Shown in pieces: positions 2 through 28,483 of a stretch of 30,312 nucleotides of DNA; position 1 is the stretch's first letter; each line of letters starts with the position of its first letter. Below the pieces are notes generated by a model. The model saw only the letters and a program-made list of their open reading frames with translations. It was not told the origin of the DNA and ran no database searches. Source of the DNA: a virus; the IMG/VR virus record IMGVR_UViG_3300020436_000054, positions 1-30,312 of that record; one strand, given 5' to 3'. Both the position numbers and the translations under genes were made by a program.

Positions 2-1495
2 GGATGGATGACAGCTGCTGCTTTTGCTAAGGTATTTCCACAATATAAGATCAGACTTATAGAGAACCCAACTCAAAAACCATTGAGTGTTGGAGAGTCT
101 ACTCTTGGTCATTTCAATCGTTACCTAGATTGCCTAGGTATACAAGATACAGATTGGATGAAAGATTGTAATGCCACATATAAACTATCAATTCAATTTA
201 CTAACTGGCAGAATAAGGGTGACGTATTTCAATATCCCTTTGGGGATTTCGATTATACTAACGGTGACTTTCTAACATGGTATTATCTACATCATACATG
301 GCCACAGTTATTTCCTGATACAACATACTGTGAGTTCTACAACCCTGTTAGTTACCTAGCAAGTACAAATAAGATCGTAGACAACAATGTCTATGTACGT
401 AATTTTAGAAGGACGTGGGATACATCATATCATTTTGATGCTACAAAATTTGGCGGTTGGTTACGAGATAATCTCTGTCAAACTATAGAGCATACAAAGG
501 CAAGAATTATAACAACTCTCTATGATGATGAGTGTAACGTCAAAGCACTTGTAGATGATGAAGGACATCATTATGAGGCAGATTATTTTATAGACTGTAG
601 TGGATTTGGATCTGTACTCCTAGAGAAATCTATGGGTCAAGATTTTATAGAGTTCCCTAATCTACCAAATGATTCTGCTGTAGTTACACATATACCATAT
701 ACTGACAAAGAGTCAGAGATGAAAAACCAGACAGATGGTTTTGCTATGGATAATGGTTGGTGTTGGACTATACCACTGTGGGAAAATATTGGAAAGGGAT
801 ATGTATATTCTAGTAAGTTCTGTGGTAAAGATCAGGCAGAACAAGAGTTTAGAAAACACCTAGACTGGGGTGGTGAAGTAGAACATATAAAATTTAAACA
901 CGGTAAGAGAAGACTAGGATGGTCTCAGAATGTTATTGGTATTGGTCTATCATATGGTTTCTTAGAACCATTAGAATCTACTGGTTTGTTCACTACACAT
1001 GAGAACATACTTAGATTAATAGATACGTTCCAACGTAGAGACGGACATATTACACAGATAGACATAGATGGATACAATCATGCTGTACACTATGAACTAG
1101 AAGCAATGAAAGAGTTTGTAGAGATGCACTACTATCTCTCTCCTAGAACTGATACAGAATATTGGAGACACTATAGTAACAAGTCACCACTATCTTATGA
1201 ACACATGTTTGATAAGGTAGTTAGATCACCTCGTCTATATCAAGAGTTTATACATTGTTGGAACATATCTAACGCACCTAAAGATATGGGTGGACTACCA
1301 TATATCGCAGCGGGACTAGGATATCATCCTATCACTAAGGTTGACTATGAATATAAGATGGCAAGAGAGGAGTTCTCAATAGCATATCTTCACGAAGTTA
1401 AGGACAGACATTTCCATTATCGAAAATCTGTGCTAAAATACTTACAGAAGCAACCATCTCACTACCAGTATTTGAAACAGAGGATATATGTTTAG
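2..1495 (+). CDS. Flavin-dependent halogenase, tryptophan-halogenase family (5' truncated)
   Basis: FADH2-dependent halogenases oxidise halide to hypohalous acid, which a catalytic Lys delivers to an aromatic substrate. The reading frame is already open at base 2 (Gly-Trp before the first Met at base 8) and matches the tail of the N-terminal GxGxxG-W-M-T flavin motif, so the true start lies left of the window. Counting from the Met at base 8, the candidate catalytic Lys is K59 in a CNATYK context. The family motif GWxWxIP is at residues 250-256, and EPLESTG carries the conserved Glu at 323. The visible 495 residues are close to full family length. The stop overlaps the next start by 8 bases, so it heads or lies within the oxygenase operon. 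A cyanophage enzyme of this family (VirX1, Syn10) is known to halogenate, preferring iodide, small aromatics. The substrate here is unknown. Confidence 0.93.
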   Translation, partial: GWMTAAAFAKVFPQYKIRLIENPTQKPLSVGESTLGHFNRYLDCLGIQDTDWMKDCNATYKLSIQFTNWQNKGDVFQYPFGDFDYTNGDFLTWYYLHHTWPQLFPDTTYCEFYNPVSYLASTNKIVDNNVYVRNFRRTWDTSYHFDATKFGGWLRDNLCQTIEHTKARIITTLYDDECNVKALVDDEGHHYEADYFIDCSGFGSVLLEKSMGQDFIEFPNLPNDSAVVTHIPYTDKESEMKNQTDGFAMDNGWCWTIPLWENIGKGYVYSSKFCGKDQAEQEFRKHLDWGGEVEHIKFKHGKRRLGWSQNVIGIGLSYGFLEPLESTGLFTTHENILRLIDTFQRRDGHITQIDIDGYNHAVHYELEAMKEFVEMHYYLSPRTDTEYWRHYSNKSPLSYEHMFDKVVRSPRLYQEFIHCWNISNAPKDMGGLPYIAAGLGYHPITKVDYEYKMAREEFSIAYLHEVKDRHFHYRKSVLKYLQKQPSHYQYLKQRIYV

Positions 1496-2285
1496 AAAGA
1501 AAAAACCAAAAGCAAGGTTCTTTAGTTTACATCCTGGCGTACATACTCTACATCCTATTACTAAGGCAGCAGAACTTGATAGAGATTGGGTTGGCAAAGA
1601 AAGAGATGATTATAGAGAGAGATTAGGTAAGTGCCCTTTCAATAAAGTATTACAAGGAGAACAACATCATCCTAATTCTATAGGTCGTTGTCCTGCTATA
1701 AATTCTATTATGAGGACAGGTTATATTGTCTACGCTCCTGCTGACTTTAAGGTTCATACAAATGGAGACGGACATACTATACTGTTTACTACCACTCCTT
1801 TTAATCCACCATCATCAGATTACGTTGTACTTCATGAAACAGATGTAACAAAATGGTTGATGGATTCTAGTAAGGATACTACAATAGATCAAGTAGTAAA
1901 AATCAATACTACTTGGCGAGTACAGGCAGACGATGATGTCGTATTTCTCCAGACAAAAGTACCTTTCGTTAATGAAACTCGCTTCTCAGCAGTATCTGGT
2001 ATTCTCGATCCACGTACTGCTTATGAAGTCAATGTCCAACTCTTCTGGCACGTGATGGAGGGTGATGTAACAATTAAAGCAGGGACACCTCTCTGCTGTT
2101 ATGTACCCATGTCACGTAGGATGTTAGAAGACTTAGACATGTCTATTGATGTAGCAACTCCTACAGATTATAGACTCGAAGAAGAGTTTATGTTCACTGC
2201 GTACAATCAGTTTCCTGAGAATGTTAACACAACTCAGAGACAAATTAAAACTAATAAAATATTGAAGAAGTATTGGAATGGATGA
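1488..2285 (+). CDS. Conserved hypothetical protein in halogenase operon (possibly DUF6065-like)
   Basis: This is a 265-residue soluble protein with no signal peptide or membrane segment. It has a basic N-terminus (MFRKKKPKARFF), a Cys/His-containing segment around residues 45-70 (GKCPFNK, GRCPAIN), then a beta-rich body ending in TPLCCYVPM near residue 205. I do not recognise a catalytic motif. From memory the pattern resembles the uncharacterised DUF6065 family, but I cannot verify that. It starts inside the last 8 bases of the halogenase gene and its stop overlaps the next oxygenase start by 8 bases, so it is almost certainly co-translated with them. A substrate-binding or carrier role for the halogenase/oxygenase set is inference from context only. 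Confidence 0.75.
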   Translation: MFRKKKPKARFFSLHPGVHTLHPITKAAELDRDWVGKERDDYRERLGKCPFNKVLQGEQHHPNSIGRCPAINSIMRTGYIVYAPADFKVHTNGDGHTILFTTTPFNPPSSDYVVLHETDVTKWLMDSSKDTTIDQVVKINTTWRVQADDDVVFLQTKVPFVNETRFSAVSGILDPRTAYEVNVQLFWHVMEGDVTIKAGTPLCCYVPMSRRMLEDLDMSIDVATPTDYRLEEEFMFTAYNQFPENVNTTQRQIKTNKILKKYWNG

Positions 2286-2886
2286 ATCAATACCTTTGTT
2301 TTCTGTACCTGTAGTTAAGGGTAGAATAGTACCAGATGAGTATGCTGATGCTTCTACTGAGACTATGTTAAATCGTATCTTTCTTGATAGAAAGTTAGGT
2401 GAATTTGAGGGTGAGTCAGGTCTATCTACAGGTCCTGATGAGATGAAACTACATGAGAAAGAAGAACTTAAGTGGTTAATGAAGCCACTAGAATTTGCTG
2501 TCAAAGAATACTGGGTATATACTCTAGGATATAAGAAGATGGCAGATATTAAATGTAGAGATGGTTGGGCAAACAAACACTTCGCAGGAGATACTACAGT
2601 AGAGCATAGTCATAATGATGGATGGTGGGGTAGTTGTCAGATATCATGTGTATATTATTTTAGAAAACCAAAAGGATCTAGCAATATAAAATTCTGTAAT
2701 CCAAATGATTATATCTTACGTCAGCAACCATACGCTATGATGAAGGGGATACATACTATAGCGAGTGAGTTCCCTGCTAATCAGTACGAGTATATAATCT
2801 TCCCATCATGGGTGAGACATAGAGTAGATCCTAGCACTGTAGGACCTCGTATAGCAATGTCATTTAATTACTATGGATATGAGTAG
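2278..2886 (+). CDS. Putative Fe(II)/2-oxoglutarate oxygenase, HxH type (copy A1)
   Basis: The 202-residue protein has the double-stranded beta-helix signature of Fe/2OG oxygenases that couple 2-oxoglutarate decarboxylation to hydroxylation. The proximal metal motif is H110-S-H112 (EHSHNDGWWG), the distal His is H181 in FPSWVRHRV, and the 2OG-anchoring Arg is probably R191 in GPRIAMSFNYY. The layout resembles the phage/marine family usually annotated 2OG-Fe(II) oxygenase (PF13759/TIGR02466-like). The usual HxD acid is not at its expected place; His takes it, although D114 is close. It overlaps the upstream gene by 8 bases and the downstream gene by 14. The same architecture recurs at 3685-4245. 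The substrate is unknown. Confidence 0.8.
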   Translation: MDESIPLFSVPVVKGRIVPDEYADASTETMLNRIFLDRKLGEFEGESGLSTGPDEMKLHEKEELKWLMKPLEFAVKEYWVYTLGYKKMADIKCRDGWANKHFAGDTTVEHSHNDGWWGSCQISCVYYFRKPKGSSNIKFCNPNDYILRQQPYAMMKGIHTIASEFPANQYEYIIFPSWVRHRVDPSTVGPRIAMSFNYYGYE

Positions 2887-3685
2887 ACTCCCTATATCTA
2901 AAAGGGTATACCAAGAAACAAAACCTATCTTCAAACCAGTGAGTGAGTGGTCATATACTTACCACAGTAAGTATTGGGTTGTAAGAGATATATTTAAAGA
3001 AGGTGGTCTAGATTTATTCAAGGACATCGCTAGTTCTTATCCTATTGTAGATACTAACAATCACGATGGGGACTTTGATCACAATCCTTTTATGGTACAT
3101 CATCTACCATACTGGATCACACAACCTCTATGTGAGGCAGTAAGAGAATTTGTAATTAGAGAACACTTTGGTCAAGGACCTGAAATGGAACTGATAGATG
3201 AACGTCTGTCAGAGTGGGGTAACGTATACTTCAAGGACGAGTGTCGTCCTCTAGTAAATTCATATATCCCACATGTAGACTTCCCTGATGATGAGGGATG
3301 GATAGGAAACTTATGGTTGTCAGAACATGAAGAAGGACAAACAACAACAAACATCTATGAATATAAAGGAGAGATTGATCAAGGACGGTACGATTTCCAA
3401 CTCGATCCACGTCACCAACGGTATAAAGAGTGGCACGAGTGGGTTGGAGACGGTAGAAATCACACAGAAGGTTTCCAAAATCTCACAGGTCAAAAAGCAT
3501 TCCACTGGGGATTCCGACAAGTAGGCAAGGCACCATGTGAACATGGCACTATGACAATTTACAATGGCAACATACCACATTGCCCTTTTGTCGATGATAG
3601 TGTAGAATATAGATGGTCTCATTGCTTTGGTTTCAAATACAAATCATTAGCAAAGGTCTTTAAAGCACAAGAAGTTCCTGTTTAA
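2873..3685 (+). CDS. Putative Fe(II)/2-oxoglutarate oxygenase, HVDFP type (copy B1)
   Basis: This 270-residue protein carries a canonical Fe/2OG facial triad: H134-V-D136 in PHVDFPDDEGW, distal H236 in GNIPHCPF and a probable 2OG-binding R247 in YRWSHCFGF. About 75 residues rich in charged and aromatic positions (roughly 150-225) separate the two halves, more than in its paralogue-like neighbour at 4242-4862, which shares the PHVDFP motif. It may belong to the DUF6445-type oxygenase-like proteins found near tryptophan halogenases; this is from memory and unverified. The start lies within the last 14 bases of the preceding gene, and a second in-frame Met (codon 3) is an alternative start. The stop shares one base with the next ATG (TAATG). 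Confidence 0.77.
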   Translation: MDMSRLPISKRVYQETKPIFKPVSEWSYTYHSKYWVVRDIFKEGGLDLFKDIASSYPIVDTNNHDGDFDHNPFMVHHLPYWITQPLCEAVREFVIREHFGQGPEMELIDERLSEWGNVYFKDECRPLVNSYIPHVDFPDDEGWIGNLWLSEHEEGQTTTNIYEYKGEIDQGRYDFQLDPRHQRYKEWHEWVGDGRNHTEGFQNLTGQKAFHWGFRQVGKAPCEHGTMTIYNGNIPHCPFVDDSVEYRWSHCFGFKYKSLAKVFKAQEVPV

Positions 3686-4245
3686 TGTTTCTAGAAGAAA
3701 TATTTCCCACCCCCATCTGGGGATTTGATCTTGACATAGATGTAGACAGTATCAAATACTGGTGCTACTCATGTATGAAAGAGAATCCTGGCAGACAAAT
3801 ATCTAACGTTGGTGGATGGCAATCAGAAGATTATAGAGAGTTTGGTCAGACACCATTGACTGAACTCGTGTTGTATATTGTCAGAGAATCTCATAACATA
3901 GCAAACGACATAGGTATACCTAAAGGTGATCGTTGGATAGAGAATCTATGGATCAATATCAATCCAAAGTATTCTTACAATCAGGTACACGTACACCCAG
4001 AAGCAAGACTATCTGGTGTGTTCTATGTGTCAGGTGCTGAGAACTCAGGTGATATATGTTTTACTAGATCTAATGGTTACTCTCTAGGAACAGTTGCCCC
4101 TAACTCTACTAGATACAGTAGTTGTGAATGGTGTTATCCACCCAAGAAAAACAGACTACTTATATTTCCTGCTTGGCAGGAGCATCACGTGAAAGCGAAT
4201 CTATCTGATGAAGATAGAATATCAATATCATTCAATATACGATGA
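3685..4245 (+). CDS. Putative Fe(II)/2-oxoglutarate oxygenase, HxH type (copy A2)
   Basis: At 186 residues this is the clearest TIGR02466/PF13759-like protein of the operon. The N-terminus (FPTPIWGFDLD) is typical of that family. The proximal motif H102-V-H104 sits in QVHVHPEA and is followed by a beta strand (LSGVFYV). The distal His is H167 or H168 in FPAWQEHHV, and R178 in DRISISFNI is the probable 2OG anchor. As in copy A1, His replaces the usual HxD acid, with E106 nearby. The start shares a base with the previous stop and the stop overlaps the next start by 4 bases (ATGA), so translation is coupled. Proteins of this family recur in marine T4-like phages, but I know of no established substrate. 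Confidence 0.85.
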   Translation: MFLEEIFPTPIWGFDLDIDVDSIKYWCYSCMKENPGRQISNVGGWQSEDYREFGQTPLTELVLYIVRESHNIANDIGIPKGDRWIENLWININPKYSYNQVHVHPEARLSGVFYVSGAENSGDICFTRSNGYSLGTVAPNSTRYSSCEWCYPPKKNRLLIFPAWQEHHVKANLSDEDRISISFNIR

Positions 4246-4862
4246 GAGAGTTTAGAAACTTTTTACCCATCTCGTTAGCAAACGAGTTACATGATAAGAT
4301 GACATCTAATGAGTTCCCTTGGTTCTGGTTAGATGATGTTACTGTATCTCCAGAGGAACGATCAGAAGTTCCTGAGTTTTACAGGAGTCAACCTGGCATG
4401 CACCATACACCATATCGTGATGGTAACATGAGTACATGGTATGGTGACTTTAGTTTCTTCTTTCATTACATCGTTGATGTTATGAATCTAGATTACAAAG
4501 ACTGGTATCTATCCAGACTAAGATGTGGATTAAACTTCCCTACATTCAGAGAAGAACATTTCCTACACAATCAACCACACGTTGACTTTCCTGAGTCATC
4601 AGGTGTTGATCATTACACATGCCTATACTACGTAAATAATTCCGATGGTCCGACAGTCGTATTTGAAGAGAAAAAAGAATCGCCCAAGTATACGATTAAG
4701 TATAAATGCGATCCCGAAAAAAATAAGTTATTCGTTTTTGACGGTAAGCACTATCATGCTAGCTCATGTCCTCAACATCATGATGCACGGTTAGCAATCA
4801 CTATCAACATTGTAAAACGTCAACCTATTCAGAATGTTAAGCCGTTTCTTCGCGTCGCGTAA
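4242..4862 (+). CDS. Putative Fe(II)/2-oxoglutarate oxygenase, HVDFP type (copy B2)
   Basis: This 206-residue protein has a full Fe/2OG triad: H113-V-D115 in QPHVDFPESSG, distal H172 in GKHYHASS and probable 2OG-binding R183 in DARLAITIN. The PHVDFP motif and general layout match the 270-residue protein at 2873-3685, but the segment between the triad halves is much shorter. The stretch from about 4640 to 4745 has more CG dinucleotides and A-runs than its surroundings, which may reflect a different history for that segment. It overlaps the upstream gene by 4 bases and the downstream gene by 29, so it belongs to the same translational unit. The substrate is not known; context suggests it works with the halogenase. 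Confidence 0.8.
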   Translation: MREFRNFLPISLANELHDKMTSNEFPWFWLDDVTVSPEERSEVPEFYRSQPGMHHTPYRDGNMSTWYGDFSFFFHYIVDVMNLDYKDWYLSRLRCGLNFPTFREEHFLHNQPHVDFPESSGVDHYTCLYYVNNSDGPTVVFEEKKESPKYTIKYKCDPEKNKLFVFDGKHYHASSCPQHHDARLAITINIVKRQPIQNVKPFLRVA

Positions 4863-5526
4863 TCTATACTGCGATGATGGAGTGGTTCACATTCGCAGTT
4901 TTTTAGACGACCCAACTCAATACCTATCATGGAAAAGTGTAGAGCATTGTCTTACACGTGATGATGTATTCTGGGAACTCATAGACAAGAAAGGACATAA
5001 AAAGAATCTTCAACAGTACAAACCTTACTGGTCTCCTGTACCATGTCAGGATAAGAACACAATATATGAACACATACAAAACAAAGAAAGTTTTGTCATC
5101 ACAGGTTACAGTAAAGTAAATAGAAAAGCAAATGACCTGTGTATAGAGATAGAGAGATCTCTAGATGTCAATGTAGATATACATGTGTATGGAGGAAAAG
5201 GTGAGGCACCTTCATTCAAGACACACTGTGACCACTTCTCTAACTTTATTATACAGTGTGTAGGAGAGACATATTGGAAAGTATATAAGAACAAACAAAC
5301 ATCCCTACTTGCTTGTAGGAATGACAAACAATTAAATTATGATATAATGGATATAGAATGGGAGGGTGTATTATTACCTGGCGATCTCCTCTATATACCT
5401 GATAGAGCATACCATCAAGCTCTACCAGATAGACCTAGGTTGTCCATAAGTATTCCTTGTGTACCAACTGTATTAAACCCTGAGTTTTATGACAGACGTA
5501 ACTACAAAATACAAACCGATAATTAA
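4834..5526 (+). CDS. JmjC/cupin-like Fe(II)/2-oxoglutarate oxygenase
   Basis: This 230-residue protein resembles cupin_4/JmjC-type hydroxylases (the family of bacterial YcfD and human MINA53/NO66, which hydroxylate ribosomal-protein side chains). The metal motif is H131-C-D133 in THCDHF, followed by the JmjC-like GETYWKVYK segment whose Lys would bind 2-oxoglutarate. LLPGDLLYIP and distal H194 in AYHQALPD follow. JmjC enzymes act mostly on proteins, so a protein or peptide target is more likely than a free metabolite, though unproven. The ATG used here overlaps the upstream gene by 29 bases; I see no better downstream start before the conserved region. The stop overlaps the next gene by 38 bases. 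Confidence 0.82.
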   Translation: MLSRFFASRNLYCDDGVVHIRSFLDDPTQYLSWKSVEHCLTRDDVFWELIDKKGHKKNLQQYKPYWSPVPCQDKNTIYEHIQNKESFVITGYSKVNRKANDLCIEIERSLDVNVDIHVYGGKGEAPSFKTHCDHFSNFIIQCVGETYWKVYKNKQTSLLACRNDKQLNYDIMDIEWEGVLLPGDLLYIPDRAYHQALPDRPRLSISIPCVPTVLNPEFYDRRNYKIQTDN

Positions 5527-6106
5527 AGTTTGGAAAGAGGCAGTTCCTATTCCATTAGTCGATTACTTATATACTGAGTTTAGACTGATGCGGGATGCCC
5601 TACTTGCCATGGGTAGTAATGAGGGTTATAATGACCCCACTGTTCCTAATACCTTTTCTTGGTATTCACCTCTATGTTTTGAAGCATTGAGTCTACACTT
5701 GAAACCTCAAGTGGAAAAAATACTGAAGACAAGTATTGAACCAACCTATTCCTATGGACGCATATATACTGAAGGAAGTGAATTGGTCAGGCATACTGAT
5801 CGTCGTTCCTCAGAAATAGCAGTCAATCTGTCTATTGCTCGTGACATCAAGTGGGATCTAAATTTTTTATGGGAAGGGCAAACCTTACATATTGACTTAG
5901 AACCAGGAGATGTGGTAATATACAGTGGATCAATTCCACACTGGAGAGAGAAGTATACAGGCAAAGAGCATATCAATGCTTTCATGCAGTATGTCTATGC
6001 TGATGGTCTACACAAAGATTTGAAGTATGACACACGTCCTTACCTCGCCACACCTTTTGCTCTAGCACAGCAAGATATACAAGATGAAGTAAAAAATTAT
6101 GTCTGA
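5489..6106 (+). CDS. Prolyl-4-hydroxylase-like Fe(II)/2-oxoglutarate oxygenase
   Basis: This 205-residue protein has the layout of the prolyl-4-hydroxylase branch of Fe/2OG oxygenases. YGRIYTEGSELVRHTD gives H102-x-D104, the segment EPGDVVIYSGSIPHW gives distal H151, and K159 in TGKEHINAF is the probable 2OG-binding Lys. It starts 38 bases inside the preceding gene; the match to the domain begins soon after this Met, so a much later start is unlikely. The stop overlaps the next gene by 8 bases. It is the sixth oxygenase-like gene in a row after the halogenase. Phage members of this fold are common, but their substrates are largely unknown. Confidence 0.85.
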   Translation: MTDVTTKYKPIIKVWKEAVPIPLVDYLYTEFRLMRDALLAMGSNEGYNDPTVPNTFSWYSPLCFEALSLHLKPQVEKILKTSIEPTYSYGRIYTEGSELVRHTDRRSSEIAVNLSIARDIKWDLNFLWEGQTLHIDLEPGDVVIYSGSIPHWREKYTGKEHINAFMQYVYADGLHKDLKYDTRPYLATPFALAQQDIQDEVKNYV

Positions 6107-6404
6107 CGCACCAGAAACAGCAGGAATGGGTACCGTTGAAAATGAACCAGAAGAGTGGACATTTGATATGGTATGGGAAGACTTCGTTGCTCAGTTAACT
6201 GAAGCACGAGAAGAAGTTAGAGAGAAGGAGGAGGAGTTAGATAAGAACTCTAGTCTCATGACTCGTATTGATCTAACTGATCTTAATGACGCTCGCACTA
6301 AAGTGAATCGTCTTGAAGGTGCTTGTGAAGCACTTGATATTATACGCACCACCGTCCTAGGTGTCGAATCTAAAATCCAACGTACTGAGGAAACTACAGC
6401 ATGA
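6099..6404 (+). CDS. Small acidic coiled-coil protein
   Basis: This 101-residue acidic protein is dominated by predicted helix. Heptad-like runs of Glu, Leu and Arg occupy residues 35-50 (AREEVREKEEELDK) and 60-95. It has no cysteine-rich, membrane or catalytic motif, and I do not recognise a family. It starts 8 bases inside the last oxygenase gene and overlaps the following small gene by 4 bases, so it is the penultimate member of the operon. A scaffold or adaptor role for the oxygenases is possible but is inference only. Confidence 0.65.
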   Translation: MSDAPETAGMGTVENEPEEWTFDMVWEDFVAQLTEAREEVREKEEELDKNSSLMTRIDLTDLNDARTKVNRLEGACEALDIIRTTVLGVESKIQRTEETTA

Positions 6405-6601
6405 CCATTGAAGAAATGATTACAGACTTTACTGAGCAACAGAGCAAGGTAAAAGCAGAAGTGGCAGAAATAAAAGATGCCCTTAAAACAAGAGAAGACC
6501 AACTACTGCGTCTACAAGGAGCAATAGAAGGTCTTAGACTAGCAACACAGGATGGTAAGACTGAAGAAGCAGCACCTACCAAACCCGCTAAGGTAAAATA
6601 A
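6401..6601 (+). CDS. Small coiled-coil protein
   Basis: This 66-residue protein is almost entirely helical by eye (EEMITDFTEQQSKVKAEVAE, then KTREDQLLRLQGAIEGL), with an Ala/Pro/Lys-rich tail (AAPTKPAKVK). It looks like a short dimerising coiled coil. The start overlaps the previous stop by 4 bases (ATGA), so it is translationally coupled to the 101-aa protein. Its stop abuts, with no spacer, the stop codon of the convergent minus-strand gene, and no hairpin terminator is visible there. The function is unknown. Confidence 0.65.
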   Translation: MTIEEMITDFTEQQSKVKAEVAEIKDALKTREDQLLRLQGAIEGLRLATQDGKTEEAAPTKPAKVK

Positions 6602-6889
6602 TTATTCCACAAACTTAAGAAACTTACTTGATATCAAGTCATGTTTCTCATCAAACTCTAAACGTCTACGGGCATGGGTCTTATCTCCTTCAACAACGAG
6701 ATAGTATCTTTTACCGTAGATGTTTTTTGTTATGCCTATAGCAACGATAGGTCTTTCGTCATATTTGTCGCCAACATCAAAAGGAATGGTATCTGAAGTG
6801 CCATCAAATTTTGCTTCAGTTCTACTCCAGAGGTGTTCTCTGAGTCTATATTCACCTGTTGGTGCTTCTCTGTCTCTAAGTCCAGCCAT
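6602..6889 (-). CDS. Hypothetical protein, only minus-strand gene
   Basis: This 95-residue protein on the minus strand has a charged N-terminus and a beta-rich middle (PFDVGDKYDERPIVAIG, then YGKRYYLVVEGD) and a Lys/Phe-rich C-terminus. Amino-acid composition and the balanced hydrophobic pattern look like a real folded protein. The opposite frame across 6720-6926 has low-complexity Ser/Leu content and is its shadow. It is convergent with the oxygenase operon and divergent from the 2083-codon gene. Its leader contains the TATAAATA late promoter of that gene on the other strand. No strong ribosome binding site is evident. I do not recognise the family. Confidence 0.7.
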   Translation of the reverse strand: MAGLRDREAPTGEYRLREHLWSRTEAKFDGTSDTIPFDVGDKYDERPIVAIGITKNIYGKRYYLVVEGDKTHARRRLEFDEKHDLISSKFLKFVE

Positions 6890-6895
6890 GAGTTC

Positions 6896-6903
6896 TATAA
6901 ATA
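6896..6903 (+). promoter_or_regulatory. T4-like late promoter (TATAAATA)
   Basis: There is an exact match to the T4 late promoter octamer, 29 bases before the ATG of the subtilisin/Ig-domain gene, in the gap between divergent genes. It implies late transcription of the large gene and of genes 13-16 downstream. Confidence 0.8.
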
Positions 6904-6932
6904 CAAAAGAGGATAATACTGACTAATATTCA

Positions 6933-9900
6933 ATGGCAACCCTTTTAGTAAAGGTAGCAGGTTCTATGACTCTTGATGGTGCTCAAGCACTAATAATGGG
7001 TCAGCATAGTTATTTAGAATTTGTAAGATCTTTCCCTTCATTTAGAACTATCCAATTTACAGCACCTTCAGAGGATCAATCATCTATAGATGAGATCAGA
7101 AGTTTGGCGTATGTTCATGGTGCGACCTATGATAAAGAGTATCAGATAGATCCAGTAGTAGGTGGTGAGACAGCAATAGCAGAGTGGGAAACAGATATAA
7201 TTGAAACTAACGCAGAAGAAGTAGCAGGAACAAGAAATACAAGAATCATTACATCAAGTGGTGGTGGAACAATATATGTAAAGGTAGCAAACTATGGTGG
7301 TAACTTAAGATTTCAGTTGTCATCTACACAGGGTGGTGTCTACAGTAGGATAGCAACCTATAGTGGTTTCGTACAAGGAGGTACCTATACCTTTGATCAG
7401 TCTGACTCATCTAACACAGGACACAGACTAGCCTTCTCTTTGACACCTGATGGTACGCACAGGGGTGGTACACAGTACACATATAATGTGACAACAGCGG
7501 GTACGCCTGGTTCATCTGGTGCGTATACTCGTATCACAGTAGATAGTGTTACAGCATCTGTACTATACTGGTACAACGTATCTAACTCTGACTACGGTGC
7601 TTATGATGACAGTCCATTACGTTATGGTGCTATTTGTATACATGACTTTTGGCATCTAGATCGTATATCAAAACAAAGTAGGAGTTTTTTAAATGGAGTC
7701 TATAACACTACAGAAGAAGCTGATGGTGTTGACGTTTATGTGCTTGATACTGGAATTAGAGGAGCTTCGAGACCGACTGGAACCAACGTAGGACTACATC
7801 CAGAACTATTTGACAAGAACAATAACGCTGACATGAACGGTTTATCCGAGCAACAGTCATACAGAGTATATGAGGTAGCAGGATATAGTTCAGGATATAC
7901 TGTCAATAGTGTAGCAAACAGTAATGAAGACGACAATGGACATGGTACATACTGTGCTAACTTAGTAGGTGGTATCAAGTCAGGTGTAGCAAATGAAACA
8001 AAATTCTATGCTCTAAAGTGTTTTAGTTCCTTTGGTAGTGGATCTCTGTCAGGTATCATGAACGCATATCAGGCAGTCATCAACCACAATGACAGTGGAC
8101 ATGTCAACTACAAAGGTAATACTAGACCCGCAGTTATCAACGCATCCTTTGGTGCTACACAACCTAGTGGTTCTTTCCCATACATTGAACTAAACGAGGC
8201 AGGAACTGACTCAGGGTTTGACGTAGAACTATATGACGAGACAGAGAAAGACGTAGTAGATGCTAATATTGTACTCGTTAGATCAGCGGGTAACGGATTT
8301 AAAGACTCTAGTGATAGTTTCTTAGGACCTCTACAGGGTAGATACCAAGCAGGAACTAGATCATCTGGATATCCAGACGGAGATGTAAACACAGTTGATA
8401 CAAATATCGCGTCTATCTCTGTAGGTGCCACAGACTACAATGACTTCTGGGCAGACTTCTCTAACTATGGTTCTGCTGTAACAGTTACAGCACCAGGTCA
8501 ACATGTAACTGTACCAAACTATAACTGGACAACTAACACCCCATATACATCAGTGGGTAATTATAGTGTTATACAAGGTACATCGTTCTCAGGTCCTATC
8601 ACAGCTGGTGTAGTATGTCAGTTCATAGCAGCTAACAGTTATACACATAGTACAGGTACACTACCAGTCTTATGTAAAAACTGGATCAGAGGATCAGGAG
8701 ATCCTGGCAACTTTGCTGCTACAAGTACAACAGCGTACCCTGCTAATACAGCTCATGAATATAAGTTACCTACTGACCCATTTGTAGTTAGCAATGGTAG
8801 TAACGTTATTAGGATATACTATCCATCTCTATACTCATCTGCCTTCTTGAACAAGATTGGAAAGAAGATACAGATAAGAGTAGCCGATACAAGTCTTGTA
8901 TTAGGTGGTATCAACCTGTATGTTGAGTCTGGGACATGGTGGGGTATCACAGGACAGGATGCTGCTAATAACTATATCGAGATAACTGTAGTCAACAGTG
9001 CTACAGGTAATGCTACAGGTGGTGGAGATAATAACTATGCTTGCGTAATATCTGACACACATGAGGGAACTGACGGACCTTCATTTGGTAACGTCACATT
9101 ATATGCTGAGTTAGACTCAGAGGAAGCAGGACATACAGGTCGTACCGTCAAACAAATACCAGTAGACACAGGTGTTGACTTTGACTATAGTCAGACAGGT
9201 GCCTTAATTAGTAAGGTCAGAGGACTGTTTACTAGATACATTTCTAAGACTATCACATGGTTCTATAACGGTAATATAAGTTCTACAGGAGGTCAAGGTG
9301 TCACTAACGGAAGAATATATTGGGATACAACAGGAGTCACAGCTGGTAGTTACTATTACCAATGTTCTGCTCACAATGACATGTATGGTACCATTACGTT
9401 ATCTGGATCAGGTGGTACTGCCAAAAGATACTGGAACGTAACCGCTTCAGGTAGTAGCAACTATACTTTACAGGAACAGAATGTCAATCCTGTAGTCAAT
9501 ACATATAACTTTGCTGTTACAGCTAGCGGTAGTCAAGACTATATCATATCTGGTTCTGACAGGACTGGTTCAATCAGTGGTAATGACCCTGCTATTGTAG
9601 TACAAGTTGGAGATACAATAAACTTTAATATGAATGCGGGTAGCAGTCACCCAACTGTTTTCAAGACTGTACAGGGAACTGGTTCAAGTAATCAGGTGTC
9701 AACAGGTACATACACAGGTGGTGGAGCATCAGCATCTGGTACTGTCAAGTGGATTACAACTGGCGTACCGATTGGCGTATATTACTATCAGTGTACAGCT
9801 CACAATAACATGTATGGTACTATCACTGTACAGGCAAACAGCACAGCAGGACAGAGTGGTGATGATGCGGGGATCAATGCTACACCAGGCGACATTCTAG

Positions 9901-12900
9901 TATTTGACACTACAGCAGGATCCAGTCATCCATTCTATATCAAGACAGCACAGGGAACTGGTACTGGTAATCTAGTAACCACAGGTAAAATAGGTGGTGA
10001 TGGGTTTGCTCACAATAGTTCTATTAATAAAGACATAGGTGTTGATGAGTTCAAGAGTTACGCCAATGAAACATTTAACGCAGGAGAAGCATATACTCTT
10101 TCTGGTGATGATATATCAGGTACAGGGCTAGCATTCAATACATCAACTGGTGTTCTATCAGGTACAGTTACATCATCCTATCAAGATTCATTCTTTGATA
10201 TCACAGTTACAGAGGACAGTTCTGGAGAGGTAAGAAACTATAACTTCCATACACTAGGTACAGGTGTTGTAATTACAATCGGAGATCAACCTTCGGATGC
10301 GACAATAGAAGCAGGAGCAGGAACTAACGCACAGTTCGGTCCTCTTAACGCAAGTATATCTGACAGTTCTACTATCAACTACCAGTGGCAGTATAGTACA
10401 GGTGGTGCTTGGACAAGTATTAGTAGTCTATCAGGACATAGTGGAGAGACAACAGATACACTTACAGTAGATGATGACTACTCATACAACGGATGGCAAT
10501 ACCGATGCGTTTGTAGTTCTAATACAGCAGCTGCTGATACAACATCTAACTCTGCTACATTGACTGTAACTAGAGTAGTAACAATATCACAGCAACCACA
10601 AAACCAATCAGCAGTGTCACCAGCTGCTGCTACATTCAGTGTAACTGCGGCTACTGCTGATGGAGCATCATTAACATATGGATGGGACAAGTCAGAAGAT
10701 AATACAGTATGGCATCAAATACCAGGTGCTACAAGTTCATCATATACAACTACAGCTACCACATATGACAGTGGTGGTACACCTCCTGCATCATTTGATG
10801 CTGATAATGGTGACTACTATAGAGTCAGAGTCAATGCTATCGGTGCTTCAGAGATAACATCTACGAGTGCCCAGTTATCAGTTACAAGAACTATAACAGT
10901 AGACACACACCCTGCCAATACTACAGGAGCAGTAGGTGGTACAGCAGACTTCACAGTTGCTGCTAGTCTTTCTGATGGAGATAGTGCTGACCTTAACTAC
11001 CTATGGCAAGTATCACTTGACGATGGACAAAACTGGTCAGGTCTTTCAGGAGCAACTTCAGCATCATACACAACACCTACACTTTCAGCTCAGTTTGATG
11101 AGTATCAGTATAGATGTTTAATATCTGCGGCTGGTGCTAATAATACATTCTCTAATGCTGCTACTTTACAGGTAGAATCAGTATCAGTTAGCGTAGTTTC
11201 TCATCCTAATGACAGCACTATAAATGAAGGACAGTCAACAAGTTTCACAGCAGTAGGTACAGTAACAACCTCTGCTATCAGTGCGTTACTAAACTCTTCC
11301 TTTGGAGTTGGTAATTGGACAACACCAGCTGGTGGTGGTGCTTCTGCTAAGGCAGAGACAGCTGCTGACCCAGAGCTATACAACTCTATATGGTCTAATC
11401 ATGCACCCTCAGTCCAGTATCAGTGGCAGAGAAAAGATGGTGGTGAAACTATCAATGTCACAGTGGGTGTAGATAATAACGGTGGACAGGCAACAGGAGT
11501 ATTCTACTTCAATGGTACAGAGAAACCTAACAACTTTGAATTTGAAAGAGGAGAGACATATATCTTTGATCAATCTGATTCATCTAATGCTACCTATAAT
11601 ACTCAAGAGCATCCATTGATGTTCAGTACAGGTGTTGACGGTGATCACAATGGTAACGGACACTATATGATGGGTGTTACCTATAAGTTAGATGGTGTTA
11701 CAAAAACTATGGCAGAGTATGTCGCAGACTTTGGTTCTGCTACTACTAAAACAATAGAATGGATCGTACCTCCTAACGCAGCTAGTGTTCTATATTATTG
11801 GTGTCACTACCATACAGGTCAGGGTAATAGTCTATTGACTACTGAACCATATAGTGATATCAGTGGTGCTACAAGTCCTACTTACAATACAGGAACAGCA
11901 ACTTACGCAGCAGATCATGCTGATCAGTATCGTTGTAAGCTTTCGGCTACAGGTGCTGACGCTGATGTATTCACCTCAGCCGCATTGCTAACTGTCTACA
12001 GGACTCATAGTGTAACCTCTGAACCAGTCAACGCAACAGGTAATGAAGGAGGCACATCATCATATACTGTAGCGGGTACAACATCAAGTGGTTCACACAC
12101 ATATCAGTGGAGTAAATCTGACAATGGCGTAGACTATAATACTATACCAGGTGCTACAAGTGCTACTTACACTACTCCTGCTCTAGTATTTGCTGATGAT
12201 AATGACGACAGATATAAGTGTACACTAAGTCTAGTAGGTGCTCAGAGTGATATAGAATCAACCTATGCTGTACAGACAGTTCTTAGAGTTATCTCTATTC
12301 AAACTCATCCACAACCACAAACTATTATTGAAGGACAGACAGCAACCTTTAGTATCGTTGCTTCTATTACCAGTGGAGCATTGAACTACCAGTGGCAGAA
12401 GACAACTGACAGTGGTGCTAATTGGGCAAATATAAATGGTGCGACAAGTGCTAGCTATACTACACCCGCACAACCATTCCCAACAAACTATAACGAGTAT
12501 CGTTGTGTATTATCTAACAGCAATGCGATATCAGTTACATCAAACTCTGCTACTATAACTGTTAATGAGTCTGAGTTCGTGGAAGCAGCTGCTTCTATGG
12601 AGGTCAATATAGATCAAACAACTAACTTGACATTCAATAGACAACCTACATTTACAGCAGGAGCATTTGTATCACAGTACGCAGGGTCAACACACCAAGC
12701 ATCGTTCTGGATAATCAAGAGAGTGGCAGATAACGTGACAGTATATGATACAGCACAGATCACTGTACCTGACTTATCACAAGGTGATACTGGTAACTTG
12801 ACTACGTTTACAGTACCAGCTGGTACACTTGACTTCGCAGTCACATACTCTGTACAAGTCAAATATAAGGATAACGCAGGACTACAAAGTAATTACTCAT

Positions 12901-13184
12901 CTCCTGTACAGTTTGCTACACCTGTAGTAGATCAACCAGAAGTACAAACTATTACTCCCGCATTTAATCCTACAATCAACGTTCTAAGTCCTGAGATCAA
13001 GGCAGGATATGGACATAACTCAACTGACTGGCAGTTCTCACAGGGAGATACTTTCATTAACATTGAACATCAATCGTTAGGAAACTCTACTAACCTACAG
13101 TCTTATACTTTACCAGGTGACGTTACACTGTTACCTACAACTACATATTATGTAAGAGTGAGATTCAACGTGGATACAGTCTAA
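6933..13184 (+). CDS. Giant virion-type protein: subtilisin-like protease with cupredoxin-like and Ig-like domains
   Basis: The 2083-residue protein has these parts in order. An N-terminal ~75-residue segment could be an I9-type propeptide. A degenerate cupredoxin-like domain spans ~100-230. A peptidase S8 domain spans ~262-580, with catalytic D272 (VLDTGI), H337 (NGHGTYCA) and S551 (GTSFSGP). Cupredoxin-like pieces follow at ~770-1020 with C-x2-H-x2-M sites (C811/H814/M817 and H906/C954/H957/M960). A putative He_PIG-like unit lies at ~1040-1110, and six Ig-like repeats at ~1112-1880. The fourth Ig repeat contains an inserted cupredoxin-like domain with H1560 and C1624-H-Y-H1627. The C-terminal ~200 residues look FN3-like. 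It directly precedes gene 13 (TAATG overlap), where T4 has wac, and has its own late promoter. It is probably a displayed tail/neck adhesin that may self-process or cut host surface protein. No signal peptide is seen. Confidence 0.88.
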   Translation: MATLLVKVAGSMTLDGAQALIMGQHSYLEFVRSFPSFRTIQFTAPSEDQSSIDEIRSLAYVHGATYDKEYQIDPVVGGETAIAEWETDIIETNAEEVAGTRNTRIITSSGGGTIYVKVANYGGNLRFQLSSTQGGVYSRIATYSGFVQGGTYTFDQSDSSNTGHRLAFSLTPDGTHRGGTQYTYNVTTAGTPGSSGAYTRITVDSVTASVLYWYNVSNSDYGAYDDSPLRYGAICIHDFWHLDRISKQSRSFLNGVYNTTEEADGVDVYVLDTGIRGASRPTGTNVGLHPELFDKNNNADMNGLSEQQSYRVYEVAGYSSGYTVNSVANSNEDDNGHGTYCANLVGGIKSGVANETKFYALKCFSSFGSGSLSGIMNAYQAVINHNDSGHVNYKGNTRPAVINASFGATQPSGSFPYIELNEAGTDSGFDVELYDETEKDVVDANIVLVRSAGNGFKDSSDSFLGPLQGRYQAGTRSSGYPDGDVNTVDTNIASISVGATDYNDFWADFSNYGSAVTVTAPGQHVTVPNYNWTTNTPYTSVGNYSVIQGTSFSGPITAGVVCQFIAANSYTHSTGTLPVLCKNWIRGSGDPGNFAATSTTAYPANTAHEYKLPTDPFVVSNGSNVIRIYYPSLYSSAFLNKIGKKIQIRVADTSLVLGGINLYVESGTWWGITGQDAANNYIEITVVNSATGNATGGGDNNYACVISDTHEGTDGPSFGNVTLYAELDSEEAGHTGRTVKQIPVDTGVDFDYSQTGALISKVRGLFTRYISKTITWFYNGNISSTGGQGVTNGRIYWDTTGVTAGSYYYQCSAHNDMYGTITLSGSGGTAKRYWNVTASGSSNYTLQEQNVNPVVNTYNFAVTASGSQDYIISGSDRTGSISGNDPAIVVQVGDTINFNMNAGSSHPTVFKTVQGTGSSNQVSTGTYTGGGASASGTVKWITTGVPIGVYYYQCTAHNNMYGTITVQANSTAGQSGDDAGINATPGDILVFDTTAGSSHPFYIKTAQGTGTGNLVTTGKIGGDGFAHNSSINKDIGVDEFKSYANETFNAGEAYTLSGDDISGTGLAFNTSTGVLSGTVTSSYQDSFFDITVTEDSSGEVRNYNFHTLGTGVVITIGDQPSDATIEAGAGTNAQFGPLNASISDSSTINYQWQYSTGGAWTSISSLSGHSGETTDTLTVDDDYSYNGWQYRCVCSSNTAAADTTSNSATLTVTRVVTISQQPQNQSAVSPAAATFSVTAATADGASLTYGWDKSEDNTVWHQIPGATSSSYTTTATTYDSGGTPPASFDADNGDYYRVRVNAIGASEITSTSAQLSVTRTITVDTHPANTTGAVGGTADFTVAASLSDGDSADLNYLWQVSLDDGQNWSGLSGATSASYTTPTLSAQFDEYQYRCLISAAGANNTFSNAATLQVESVSVSVVSHPNDSTINEGQSTSFTAVGTVTTSAISALLNSSFGVGNWTTPAGGGASAKAETAADPELYNSIWSNHAPSVQYQWQRKDGGETINVTVGVDNNGGQATGVFYFNGTEKPNNFEFERGETYIFDQSDSSNATYNTQEHPLMFSTGVDGDHNGNGHYMMGVTYKLDGVTKTMAEYVADFGSATTKTIEWIVPPNAASVLYYWCHYHTGQGNSLLTTEPYSDISGATSPTYNTGTATYAADHADQYRCKLSATGADADVFTSAALLTVYRTHSVTSEPVNATGNEGGTSSYTVAGTTSSGSHTYQWSKSDNGVDYNTIPGATSATYTTPALVFADDNDDRYKCTLSLVGAQSDIESTYAVQTVLRVISIQTHPQPQTIIEGQTATFSIVASITSGALNYQWQKTTDSGANWANINGATSASYTTPAQPFPTNYNEYRCVLSNSNAISVTSNSATITVNESEFVEAAASMEVNIDQTTNLTFNRQPTFTAGAFVSQYAGSTHQASFWIIKRVADNVTVYDTAQITVPDLSQGDTGNLTTFTVPAGTLDFAVTYSVQVKYKDNAGLQSNYSSPVQFATPVVDQPEVQTITPAFNPTINVLSPEIKAGYGHNSTDWQFSQGDTFINIEHQSLGNSTNLQSYTLPGDVTLLPTTTYYVRVRFNVDTV
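10267..12575 (+). repeat. Six tandem Ig-like domain repeats within the giant gene
   Basis: Six degenerate repeats of about 90-105 codons share a start like IxxxPxNxT, a core YxWQxSxDxGxxW, a conserved IxGATSxSYTT strand and a YRCxLSxxGA end. Approximate boundaries are 10267-10578, 10579-10887, 10888-11178, 11179-12000 (lengthened by a nested cupredoxin-like domain), 12001-12285 and 12286-12575. They diverge at DNA level, so this is protein-domain repetition rather than recent duplication. Confidence 0.75.
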
Positions 13185-13993
13185 TGGCAAAACCAAGTAG
13201 TAAAGCAACTCTAGCAGAGTATGCTTTAAGAAAACTAGGAGCACCAGTCCTAGAAATAAACGTAGATGACGATCAGATAGATGATCTGATTGATGATGCT
13301 TTGCAGTTTTTTCAAGAGAGATCTACTGATGGTTATATTAGAACTTTTCTAAAGTATAAGTTTGATCAAGCAACTATAGACTTGATGAAGACTGACACAA
13401 CTACTACAGTGACACAGGTAGGTGCTAGACAACCAGAGTTTCTTGAGCAGAATAATTTTATTACCATGCCTGAGCATGTCACCTCAGTCATTAAGATATT
13501 TGATTTCACATCTAAGAATACTACCAATCTATTTGACGTAAGATACCAGTGGAGATTGAATGATCTCTGGGATCTAACTCAGACTGAGATTCTTACATAT
13601 GAAATGGTAAACAGAAGATTAGAAGATATATACTGGTTACTAGAAGGACAGAAACAAATCAGATTCCAAGCAAGAGGAGACAGGTTATACATGGATCTTG
13701 ACTTCAAGACTGATGTAAACGATGGTGACTTCATAGTATTTGATGCTTACAGAGCATTGGATCCTTCATCATTTACTACACTATATGATGATATTTTCCT
13801 CAAGAGATATACTACACAACTTATAAAGAGACAGTGGGGTCAGAACTTGAGTAAGTTCCAAGGTGCTCAGTTGCCAGGTGGTATCACTATGAATGGTGAT
13901 CAAATATATCAACAGGCACAAACTGAGTTAGACAGAATAGAAGATGAGATGCTAATGAAGTATGAAATGCCTCCAATGGATATGATCGGATAA
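13184..13993 (+). CDS. gp13: Neck protein gp13 (head completion)
   Basis: In T4, gp13 and gp14 join the portal vertex after packaging and form the neck that receives the tail. This 269-residue protein has the gp13 pattern: an N-terminal helix LAEYALRKLG, the acidic segment DDDQIDDLIDDALQFFQERS, then a central strand pair (NNFITMPEHVTSVIKIF) and a C-terminal helical segment. It is a little shorter than T4 gp13 (about 309 residues). It is coupled by TAATG to the giant gene upstream and to gene 14 downstream. Identification rests on sequence pattern plus exact T4 gene order. Confidence 0.92.
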   Translation: MAKPSSKATLAEYALRKLGAPVLEINVDDDQIDDLIDDALQFFQERSTDGYIRTFLKYKFDQATIDLMKTDTTTTVTQVGARQPEFLEQNNFITMPEHVTSVIKIFDFTSKNTTNLFDVRYQWRLNDLWDLTQTEILTYEMVNRRLEDIYWLLEGQKQIRFQARGDRLYMDLDFKTDVNDGDFIVFDAYRALDPSSFTTLYDDIFLKRYTTQLIKRQWGQNLSKFQGAQLPGGITMNGDQIYQQAQTELDRIEDEMLMKYEMPPMDMIG

Positions 13994-17513: not shown

Positions 17514-17671
17514 TGCAGTTCAGAGAAAGCGACATACTAGAATTACTAGACATGTGTCGCACAACAGATAAATGTAGTGTCAAACTTATACGTAAGTTAG
17601 AAGACTACCTAGAACAATATTCTTGTGATGAGCAAAATCTGGCACGAACATATCCCCCCTTCCCTTTTTAA
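17513..17671 (+). CDS. Possible 52-aa small protein overlapping the next gene
   Basis: A TAATG junction opens a 52-codon frame beginning MQFRESDILELLDMCR and ending PPFPF. Residues 1-40 look like a compact acidic helix pair. It fills the only gap between two genes and overlaps the downstream oxygenase gene by 44 bases. The Pro/Phe-rich end lies in the overlap and may be just read-through into another gene's frame. It could instead be leader sequence for coupled translation of the oxygenase. Confidence 0.5.
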   Translation: MQFRESDILELLDMCRTTDKCSVKLIRKLEDYLEQYSCDEQNLARTYPPFPF

Positions 17672-18173
17672 CAAGTTAAAAGATGCTTGTATAGAAAGAA
17701 GGAAAGACGAAGACTGGGACTATAATAATAAATTAGTTGGTGCTTTGAATCAACAGTCATCTCTCGTTCCTACTGAGGGGTTGGAAGATTATCTCGTCCA
17801 TACTTCACAGAATATTTGGCATACATTCTTTCAGACATGCCCATATAAAGGAGACTTCAATCCAAACTATTTGGATCTCCGCGAACTATGGGTAAACTAT
17901 CAGAAACCTGGTCAATACAATCCTTACCACTGCCATCATGGTGTGGTAAGTTTTGTTATTTTTGTAGACATACCATACGGTGTGGAAGAACGGAAAGACT
18001 TTGCTAGTGATGGTGGATTCCAACTAGAGGATAGACTTATCAACGTGGATAGATCATGGAATGGACAGGTACTTATGTTTCCATCTCCTACTAATCACGC
18101 AGTGTATCCTTATCATTCCACAGACAAAGAAAGAATTACTGTAGCAGGAAATTTATTCTGGAAAGTGTGCTAA
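17628..18173 (+). CDS. Putative Fe(II)/2-oxoglutarate oxygenase, HxH type
   Basis: The 181-residue protein (the GTG one codon before this ATG is possible but less likely) has an Fe/2OG-like layout. QYNPYHCHHG gives H101-C-H103, strand SFVIFVDIPY follows, FPSPTNHAVYPY supplies distal H157, and R169 in DKERITVAGN is the probable 2OG anchor. It is the HxH subtype seen at 2278 and 3685, without the canonical acidic ligand. It sits between the terminase genes, away from the oxygenase operon. Related genes recur at this place in marine T4-like phages as far as I recall (unverified). The substrate is unknown. Confidence 0.78.
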   Translation: MSKIWHEHIPPSLFNKLKDACIERRKDEDWDYNNKLVGALNQQSSLVPTEGLEDYLVHTSQNIWHTFFQTCPYKGDFNPNYLDLRELWVNYQKPGQYNPYHCHHGVVSFVIFVDIPYGVEERKDFASDGGFQLEDRLINVDRSWNGQVLMFPSPTNHAVYPYHSTDKERITVAGNLFWKVC

Positions 18174-28475: not shown

Positions 28476-28483
28476 TATAAATA
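28476..28483 (+). promoter_or_regulatory. T4-like late promoter for gene 22 (TATAAATA)
   Basis: There is an exact match to the T4 late octamer 3 bases after the gene 21 stop and 43 bases before the gene 22 ATG. It probably drives genes 22 and 23 together. Confidence 0.8.

Follow-up and report, generated by a model that had tools for sequence, protein, structure and literature searches.

A viral halogenase and oxygenase cassette conserved behind glycine-rich fibre-tip genes: a candidate system for tailoring a phage adhesin

The viral contig IMGVR_UViG_3300020436_000054 of IMG/VR, analysed here over its whole 30,312 bases and referred to below as the window, carries at positions 2-6601 a cassette in which a gene for a flavin-dependent halogenase (FDH) is followed by a run of oxygenase-like genes. 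The cassette comprises ten open reading frames (ORFs), all on the + strand, at the positions given by the first-pass annotation, and each of its nine junctions overlaps, by 1-38 nucleotides (nt; in order 8, 8, 14, 1, 4, 29, 38, 8 and 4), in agreement with the tightly packed run described there. The content proposed in that annotation, a halogenase with six oxygenase-like genes, is supported by Pfam and PHROG matches, by family members and by invariant metal sites. The ratio of non-synonymous to synonymous substitution rates (dN/dS) was 0.07-0.38 across all ten genes in comparison with five relatives, indicating purifying selection; the nearest of these relatives, locus L009, is 97% identical in the second gene (DUFx) and about 100% identical in the sixth (O4). 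Because all ten genes are constrained and the same arrangement is seen again in isolates as well as in contigs, the cassette is not a product of chance or decay. The observation of the cassette was confirmed, and the system is larger than first described.

The FDH gene (2-1495) is cut at its 5' end by the contig edge, where its ORF remains open, and 12 N-terminal residues are absent as judged by the L009 copy. The protein matches PF04820 (E 3.5e-96) and PHROG 2928 (E 2.3e-139), and its best PDB match is VirX1 (6qgm), across residues 1-496. The catalytic Lys of the family, Lys61 in this protein, is kept in 62/62 aligned FDHs. We also found W253, W255 and P258 as well as F320-P323-S326-G328, the tested columns being kept in 50-62 of the 62 sequences; these read as WxWxIP and FxEPLES, and we take the corresponding family motifs to be WxWxIP and FxxPLxSxG. 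The flavin-binding GxGxxG region lies beyond the contig edge and reads GGGSSGW in the near-identical L009 copy. In a tree of the 62 sequences, the window FDH and VirX1 fall inside one large viral group. Lys79 of VirX1 is named in the consulted passages of a review (PMC8407142). As judged from these features, the window protein is a VirX1-group flavin-dependent halogenase, corresponding to FDH2 of L009, the copy directly before DUFx. VirX1 itself is identical, save for the first residue, to the second member of the tandem halogenase pair carried by the Syn10 cassette. The statement that halogenases occur singly in phages, with VirX1 as the example, therefore does not hold for VirX1, and does hold for some other phages with a lone, diverged FDH, such as S-MbCM6.

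Among the oxygenase-like genes, O4 (4242-4862) and JmjC (4834-5526) carry the HxD...H triad plus Arg of the superfamily dependent on Fe(II) and 2-oxoglutarate (2OG), to which we assign both. The JmjC protein matches JmjC_2 (PF08007, E 3.7e-18), its residues H131/D133/H194/R202 are invariant in 28 aligned members, and its nearest proteins in the PDB are NO66, MINA, YcfD and a putative asparaginyl hydroxylase. JmjC enzymes of the NO66/MINA/YcfD type hydroxylate protein residues, acting on protein side chains. The window copy of O4 had no Pfam match at E up to 1; its family matches PF13640 in 16 of 26 members, PF13759 in 12 and DUF6445 in 6, through which the assignment is secured, and H113/D115/H172/R183 are invariant in all 26. 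O1 (2278-2886) and O3 (3685-4245) match PF13759 (E 1.2e-11 and 7.8e-22, respectively) and TIGR02466, the O1 score being below the NCBIfam cut-off. Their H-x-H...H...R site is invariant (23 and 25 aligned members), with His where a carboxylate is usual, and the two were therefore placed under PF13759 only. Fe/2OG chemistry is likely for both, though we do not assign it. HIH is also present in 3bvc, a solved relative of O3 along with 2rg4, and hhalign related O3 to O4 significantly (93.5%), aligning the O3 site onto the H-x-D of O4. As a separate observation, the His replacing the iron-binding carboxylate raises the possibility of a three-His iron site in these proteins.

The oxygenase assignment is weaker and tentative for O2 (2873-3685) and O6 (5489-6106), for which it is suggested by invariant triads (H134-x-D136...H236 in 26 aligned members and H102-x-D104...H151 in 24) and weak family homology. 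DUF6445 was matched by 6 of 26 O2 members and PF13532 by 3 of 24 O6 members (best 1.8e-4); hhalign comparisons of O2 and of O6 with O4 were not significant, and the O2 profile retrieved nothing useful from the PDB. The PHROG names "minor coat protein" (2873), "DNA endonuclease V" (4242) and "ferrochelatase" (5489) were rejected, as the metal sites and the family kinship, strong for 4242 and weak for 2873 and 5489, indicate oxygenases. A ferrochelatase as the top PDB profile match of the 5489 family (E 0.29) was taken as chance.

The remaining genes of the cassette are DUFx (1488-2285, phrog_7084) and two genes for small coiled-coil-like proteins, CC1 (6099-6404; phrog_20247, the assignment of distant copies being uncertain) and CC2 (6401-6601; phrog_580). 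DUFx had been listed as an unrecognised protein; this is corrected here, in that its AlphaFold2 model (predicted local distance difference test score, pLDDT, 88.7) has a predicted fold resembling dUTPase, with a best VIA Z-score of 9.7 against dUTPases (root-mean-square deviation, rmsd, 4.6; 128 aligned residues) and a best Foldseek E of 1.3e-3. A tblastn search found DUFx in 16 phage records, directly behind the halogenase in 14 of them, and did not find it in the cassettes of P-RSM6, S-WAM1 and S-SZBM1. A role as a scaffold or nucleotide-binding partner would be a guess. Both small genes with which the run was said to end are present. The phrog_580 profile matches beside gp13 in Sf-CH1a, a phage lacking DUFx, O1, O2, JmjC, CC1 and the upstream glycine-rich gene described below, and gave no match in the cassettes of Syn9, S-CREM1 and P-RSM6, which do not adjoin gp13. 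Since phrog_580 tracks gp13 in this way, CC2 may belong to the surroundings of gp13 and not to the cassette.

Because the contig ends inside the halogenase, the upstream half of the locus was read from relatives. In L009 and L008 the order is a giant fibre gene, three tandem genes for a glycine-rich protein (GRA, 250-253 amino acids, aa), a gene of 171-172 aa termed CHAP, a first halogenase, the halogenase of the window type and the oxygenases. S-RIM44 shows the same ordered set through CC2, followed by gp13. Variants with two or three GRAs were found in Syn9, Syn10, S-CREM1, P-TIM40, P-RSM6, S-WAM1, S-SZBM1, Sf-FP1 and Sf-FR1; one GRA copy is apparently broken in each deposited record of S-CREM1 (L014) and Syn9 (L004), with an intact counterpart in Syn10. 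The number and type of oxygenases differ between phages, and the genes beyond GRA and CHAP vary among phage groups, GRA and CHAP being the conserved immediate neighbours. By comparison with close relatives, the DNA upstream of the contig edge is expected to hold the gene for a giant fibre, followed by two or three GRAs, CHAP and a first halogenase. A second type of cassette (L056, L066, L070, L075, L096 and L059) has a gene of about 409 aa between CHAP and FDH. The protein contains Cys, belongs to phrog_1458 (L056 copy) and gave no Pfam match (two copies) and no NCBIfam or credible PDB match (one copy). Some cassettes of this type carry an O4 ahead of the halogenase, and L075 comes from a 354-kb contig.

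To assess the linkage from the GRA side, viral contigs were scanned with the GRA alignment alone, and the best 80 of 242 matches gave 77 distinct loci. The GRAs recovered in this way resemble those of L009 and the cyanophages; the second cassette type lay beyond the reach of the scan. In thirteen of the 77 loci less than 2.2 kb of sequence remains after the last GRA, and these were excluded (FDH is visible in 8 of them, and 5 end before it). In the 64 testable loci, CHAP and FDH lie downstream of GRA in 64/64 and at least one oxygenase is present in 61/64, the distance from GRA to FDH being 443-850 nt (median 513). A comparison of contig names showed that 47 of the 64 loci were absent from the set obtained with the halogenase as the query. 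The latter scan (best 80 of 595 relatives) contributed to a set of 86 viral loci, of which 65 had at least 3 kb upstream and 21 with less were left out; GRA was found in 52 of the 65 and CHAP also in 52, in not quite identical loci (CHAP after the halogenase in L060, and CHAP without GRA in L079). This set leans towards cassette members, since the FDH alignment was built from them, and the loci on which the hidden Markov models were trained overlap with those to which they were applied. Among the loci lacking GRA, L099 has a 451-aa glycine-rich, collagen-like protein (11900-13255; PF01391 just under cut-off) directly after the halogenase. The first-pass annotation had named scattered homologues without conserved order, or frames broken in most relatives, as evidence against a cooperating system; instead, contigs and isolates alike keep the order, and the ten frames are constrained in comparison with five relatives.

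A similar picture was obtained for phage isolates. GRA matched 20 of 50,697 phage records by tblastn, representing 11 named phages; each of the 20 is also a halogenase record. Of the 65 halogenase records 40 were listed, and 26 of those 40 show at least 35% identity, 20 of them being the GRA records; the other six are four twin records of S-B64 and S-H35 and two of Sf-CH1a/Sf-CH11. In the RefSeq records of S-B64 and S-H35, GRA was detected by profile (3.1e-28 and 3.5e-28, respectively), one gene away from a tail fibre and a long way from FDH, which lies apart from any cassette; a CHAP-like gene follows GRA in S-B64 by eye. GRA and FDH are both retained in these phages though unlinked, an exception that fits an association between the two. 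The GRA profile was positive in 5 of 12 records searched and negative in S-MbCM6, S-PM2, P-SSM2, Syn30, Sf-CH1b, Sf-CH5 and Sf-CH1a. Six of these seven have no cassette; that of Sf-CH1a is diverged and adjoins other glycine-rich proteins. In the Sf-CH1a locus (L019, 7734-13896), two oxygenase-like genes precede and two follow a diverged halogenase, with Gly_rich_2 proteins flanking on both sides.

A bacterial form of the cassette was looked for in 80 GTDB loci retrieved with the halogenase alignment; homologues of GRA, CHAP, DUFx, O2 and O6 were present in 0/80 at 1e-3. A weak JmjC match was seen in three (L206, L234 and L257), an O4-like gene in L257 and an O3-like gene in L217. L257, from Shewanella, has two halogenases with the weak JmjC match between them and the O4-like gene after them (4477-10238), and is the nearest to a bacterial counterpart of the cassette among the 80 loci. 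Of three loci inspected by eye, two, L193 and L215 from marine Alteromonadales, have tandem halogenases beside apparent TonB-dependent receptors.

GRA is placed with tail-fibre proteins by PHROG 863 and 21412, and its Pfam match, Gly_rich_2, is under the cut-off for the L009 copies and over it for others. A sequence-profile search of the PDB with GRA gave nothing useful. The structural model (pLDDT 87.9) matched the Pam3 fibre (Foldseek 3.4e-8; VIA Z 21.4 to 7ypx, rmsd 2.5, 181 aligned residues), followed by the Bxb1 tail tip (Z 15.0) and the glycine-rich domains of ALK/LTK (Z 8-10), the remaining rows being below 4. On this model, GRA is predicted to be a Pam3-type tail-fibre tip with a TNF-like plus glycine-rich fold. 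In 40 aligned GRAs, E100, Y135, H165 and H188 are kept in 40/40, N160 in 39 and H209 in 38, and column 98 is H, Y or F in 39. The conserved His, Tyr and Asn fall between Gly runs in the sequence and, by analogy to Pam3, may sit at loop tips. In the available text of the Pam3 paper, receptor recognition is assigned to the glycine-rich domain of the fibre, which is clasped by the fibre chaperone (PMC9608196). Within the C-terminal 165 residues of 168 GRAs, His accounts for 7.7% (range 2.7-13.6) of all residues other than Gly, as compared with 0-4.6% in seven other phage regions matching PF21722 (1.4% and 0.8% in two of them) and 1.7% in 13 window proteins.

Taken together, the window is best explained as carrying the downstream part of an operon whose products make a receptor-binding fibre tip and give it its final chemistry. 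The first-pass annotation had proposed stepwise tailoring of one substrate; a cooperating redox set is consistent with the conserved order and the ten constrained frames, and, as to the substrate, which had been left open, the evidence favours the phage's own fibre tip over a metabolite. We favour this protein substrate because of the 64/64 linkage to GRA and the kinship of JmjC to hydroxylases of protein residues, and consider it more likely than not that the cassette enzymes hydroxylate and halogenate GRA before virion assembly, the linkage being observed and the modification being what we infer from it. In such a pathway, the fibre, GRA and CHAP would be made first, CHAP possibly serving as a GRA chaperone. 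The halogenase or halogenases would then act on an activated side chain, most likely Tyr and possibly His, of nascent or chaperone-bound GRA in the cytosol, and the oxygenases would hydroxylate other residues, JmjC at sites of the His, Asn or Arg type. The finished tip would be mounted on the fibre, presumably late, and might gain new receptor-binding chemistry or greater stiffness. It is chemically reasonable that Tyr or His would be halogenated and His, Asn or Pro hydroxylated, since the nearest relatives of JmjC are protein hydroxylases and the VirX1 active site is open and accepts larger phenols, according to the passages used of PMC8407142. The fuller picture, a virus-encoded workshop that places halogenated Tyr/His and hydroxylated His/Asn/Pro at the polyglycine loop tips of its own receptor-binding protein, seems to us evenly balanced between right and wrong.

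Several observations weigh against modification of GRA. Sf-CH1a has no GRA, its FDH being flanked by two other glycine-rich proteins, and Syn30 and Sf-CH1b have JmjC orthologues without GRA. Conversely, Sf-FR1 has GRA and FDH without JmjC, O2 and O3, and S-B64 and S-H35 are without JmjC; since these three phages have GRA without several of the enzymes, the full enzyme set is not required for GRA. In the FDH-seeded set, GRA is missing within 6 kb at 13/65 loci with enough upstream DNA; the records of these 13, which are fragments and were searched by profile with no positive control, gave no GRA either. The spacing of 443-850 nt is limited to the GRA-seeded set, the second cassette type having the insertion of about 409 aa. 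Individual GRAs have as little as 2.7% His, and the conservation of His and Tyr could be due to folding or metal binding instead. No flavin reductase match was found among the ten window genes by Pfam. Moreover, linkage is not chemistry, the modified residues named above are inferred, and genes near host-range genes can hitch-hike.

The first alternative, which is the assumption made in the literature, is that the substrate is a peptide or small metabolite of the host, of an antibiotic-like or signalling kind, and that the cassette lies behind the fibre genes incidentally; it appears unlikely. It agrees with the general use of halogenases and oxygenases in tailoring natural products, which is textbook knowledge, with the iodination of many small molecules by VirX1 (PMC8407142, as far as the cited passages go) and with the assignment of the S-CREM1 halogenase to pyrrolnitrin-type antibiotic protection in the consulted part of PMC9964418. 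It sits poorly with the presence of FDH at every testable GRA locus, the persistence of FDH and GRA together, unlinked, in S-B64 and S-H35, the protein hydroxylases as best PDB matches of JmjC, and a Pfam search in which no scaffold-making family was matched among the ten window genes. We regard as similarly improbable that the target is another macromolecule, whether the giant fibre, some other protein of the virion or a molecule on the host surface. A giant structural gene precedes the operon, a gene of 2083 aa follows the cassette in the window, and the co-occurrence of JmjC and GRA is incomplete; against this, it is GRA and CHAP that stay directly adjacent across phage groups, unlike the genes beyond them, and the cofactors, reduced flavin, 2OG and Fe, are cytosolic, which would disfavour a surface target. 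Hitch-hiking of an accessory block inherited with the host-range module and without action on it is the least likely of the three, as the variation in oxygenase number and type and the accessory-gene hot-spots of cyanophage genomes (those named in the passages used of PMC3037559 being at other sites) are outweighed by the 64/64 linkage from the GRA side, the retention of both genes where unlinked, and the seven profile-negative records, six without a cassette and Sf-CH1a with its diverged one beside other glycine-rich proteins.

Downstream of the cassette lies a T4-like structural cluster, in which the neck protein at 13993 matches PF11649 and the remaining gp names were taken from the gene order in comparison with S-RIM44. 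A 95-aa ORF on the - strand (6602-6889) separates the cassette from the 2083-aa gene (6933-13184), whose product has a plastocyanin/azurin-type domain (PF00127, 4.5e-7) together with Ig-like repeats and subtilisin-like motifs that were seen by eye and had no Pfam support at 0.01. An extra PF13759 protein, not part of the cassette, is encoded between gp16 and gp17 (17625-18173). Promoter and terminator scans of the window were near chance level. The sequence TATAAATA, presumably the T4-type late promoter core, occurs at 6896-6903 and 28476-28483, each time right before a gene and never inside the cassette; its count of two in the window equals the chance expectation.

In the open literature, surveyed through titles, abstract openings and some passages, with subscription papers and preprints lying outside, no link between a phage halogenase and a tail fibre was found. 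In the passages seen, antibiotic protection is proposed for the phage halogenase (PMC2984593, PMC9964418), and phage oxygenases are explained by DNA repair, 2OG control or reprogramming of the host (PMC3037559, PMC9146016, PMC9602691), protein modification being named as a general function of the superfamily (PMC9964418, PMC9602691). The structure of VirX1 has been solved, and the consulted parts of PMC8407142 name no pathway for it; for the 2OG oxygenases of cyanophages, the explanations by DNA repair or 2OG control have been loose ones. The order GRA-CHAP-FDH offers these halogenases and oxygenases one concrete, testable protein substrate. If the proposal is true, GRA is the natural substrate of VirX1 and, to our knowledge, the first halogenated viral adhesin, and swaps of enzymes could alter the chemistry of the host-binding surface with the adhesin gene unchanged. 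Confirmation would establish adhesin tailoring as a new kind of viral post-translational system, with consequences for predicting phage host range from sequence, and would provide a ready set of protein-halogenating enzymes.

Among known systems, VirX1 of Syn10 is the closest, being encoded in the same kind of cassette and in the same slot preceding DUFx; it differs in that the review, in its available passages, handles it as an isolated biocatalyst (PMC8407142). The JmjC ribosomal oxygenases NO66, MINA and YcfD share the JmjC_2 domain and the HxD...H site with the window JmjC, which is short (230 aa), phage-borne and adjoining fibre genes, and which matches the solved members at E 3e-5 to 9e-3 only. 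The Pam3 fibre gp24 and its chaperone gp25 (7ypx, 7yfw; PMC9608196) resemble GRA and CHAP in the glycine-rich fold of a receptor-binding tip and in the small partner gene. Pam3 differs in having a single simple fibre, and a word search for hydroxylation or iron in the accessible text of the same paper was empty (PMC9608196). CHAP had no sequence match in a profile search of the PDB, and its kinship to chaperones such as gp25 is accordingly putative. In adhesins of the S16 gp38 type, a glycine-rich protein with variable loops stands at the fibre tip, as proposed for GRA. We know of no enzyme cassette associated with them. These polyglycine adhesins of T4-like phages are themselves compared with the Pam3 fibre in the consulted passages of PMC9608196.

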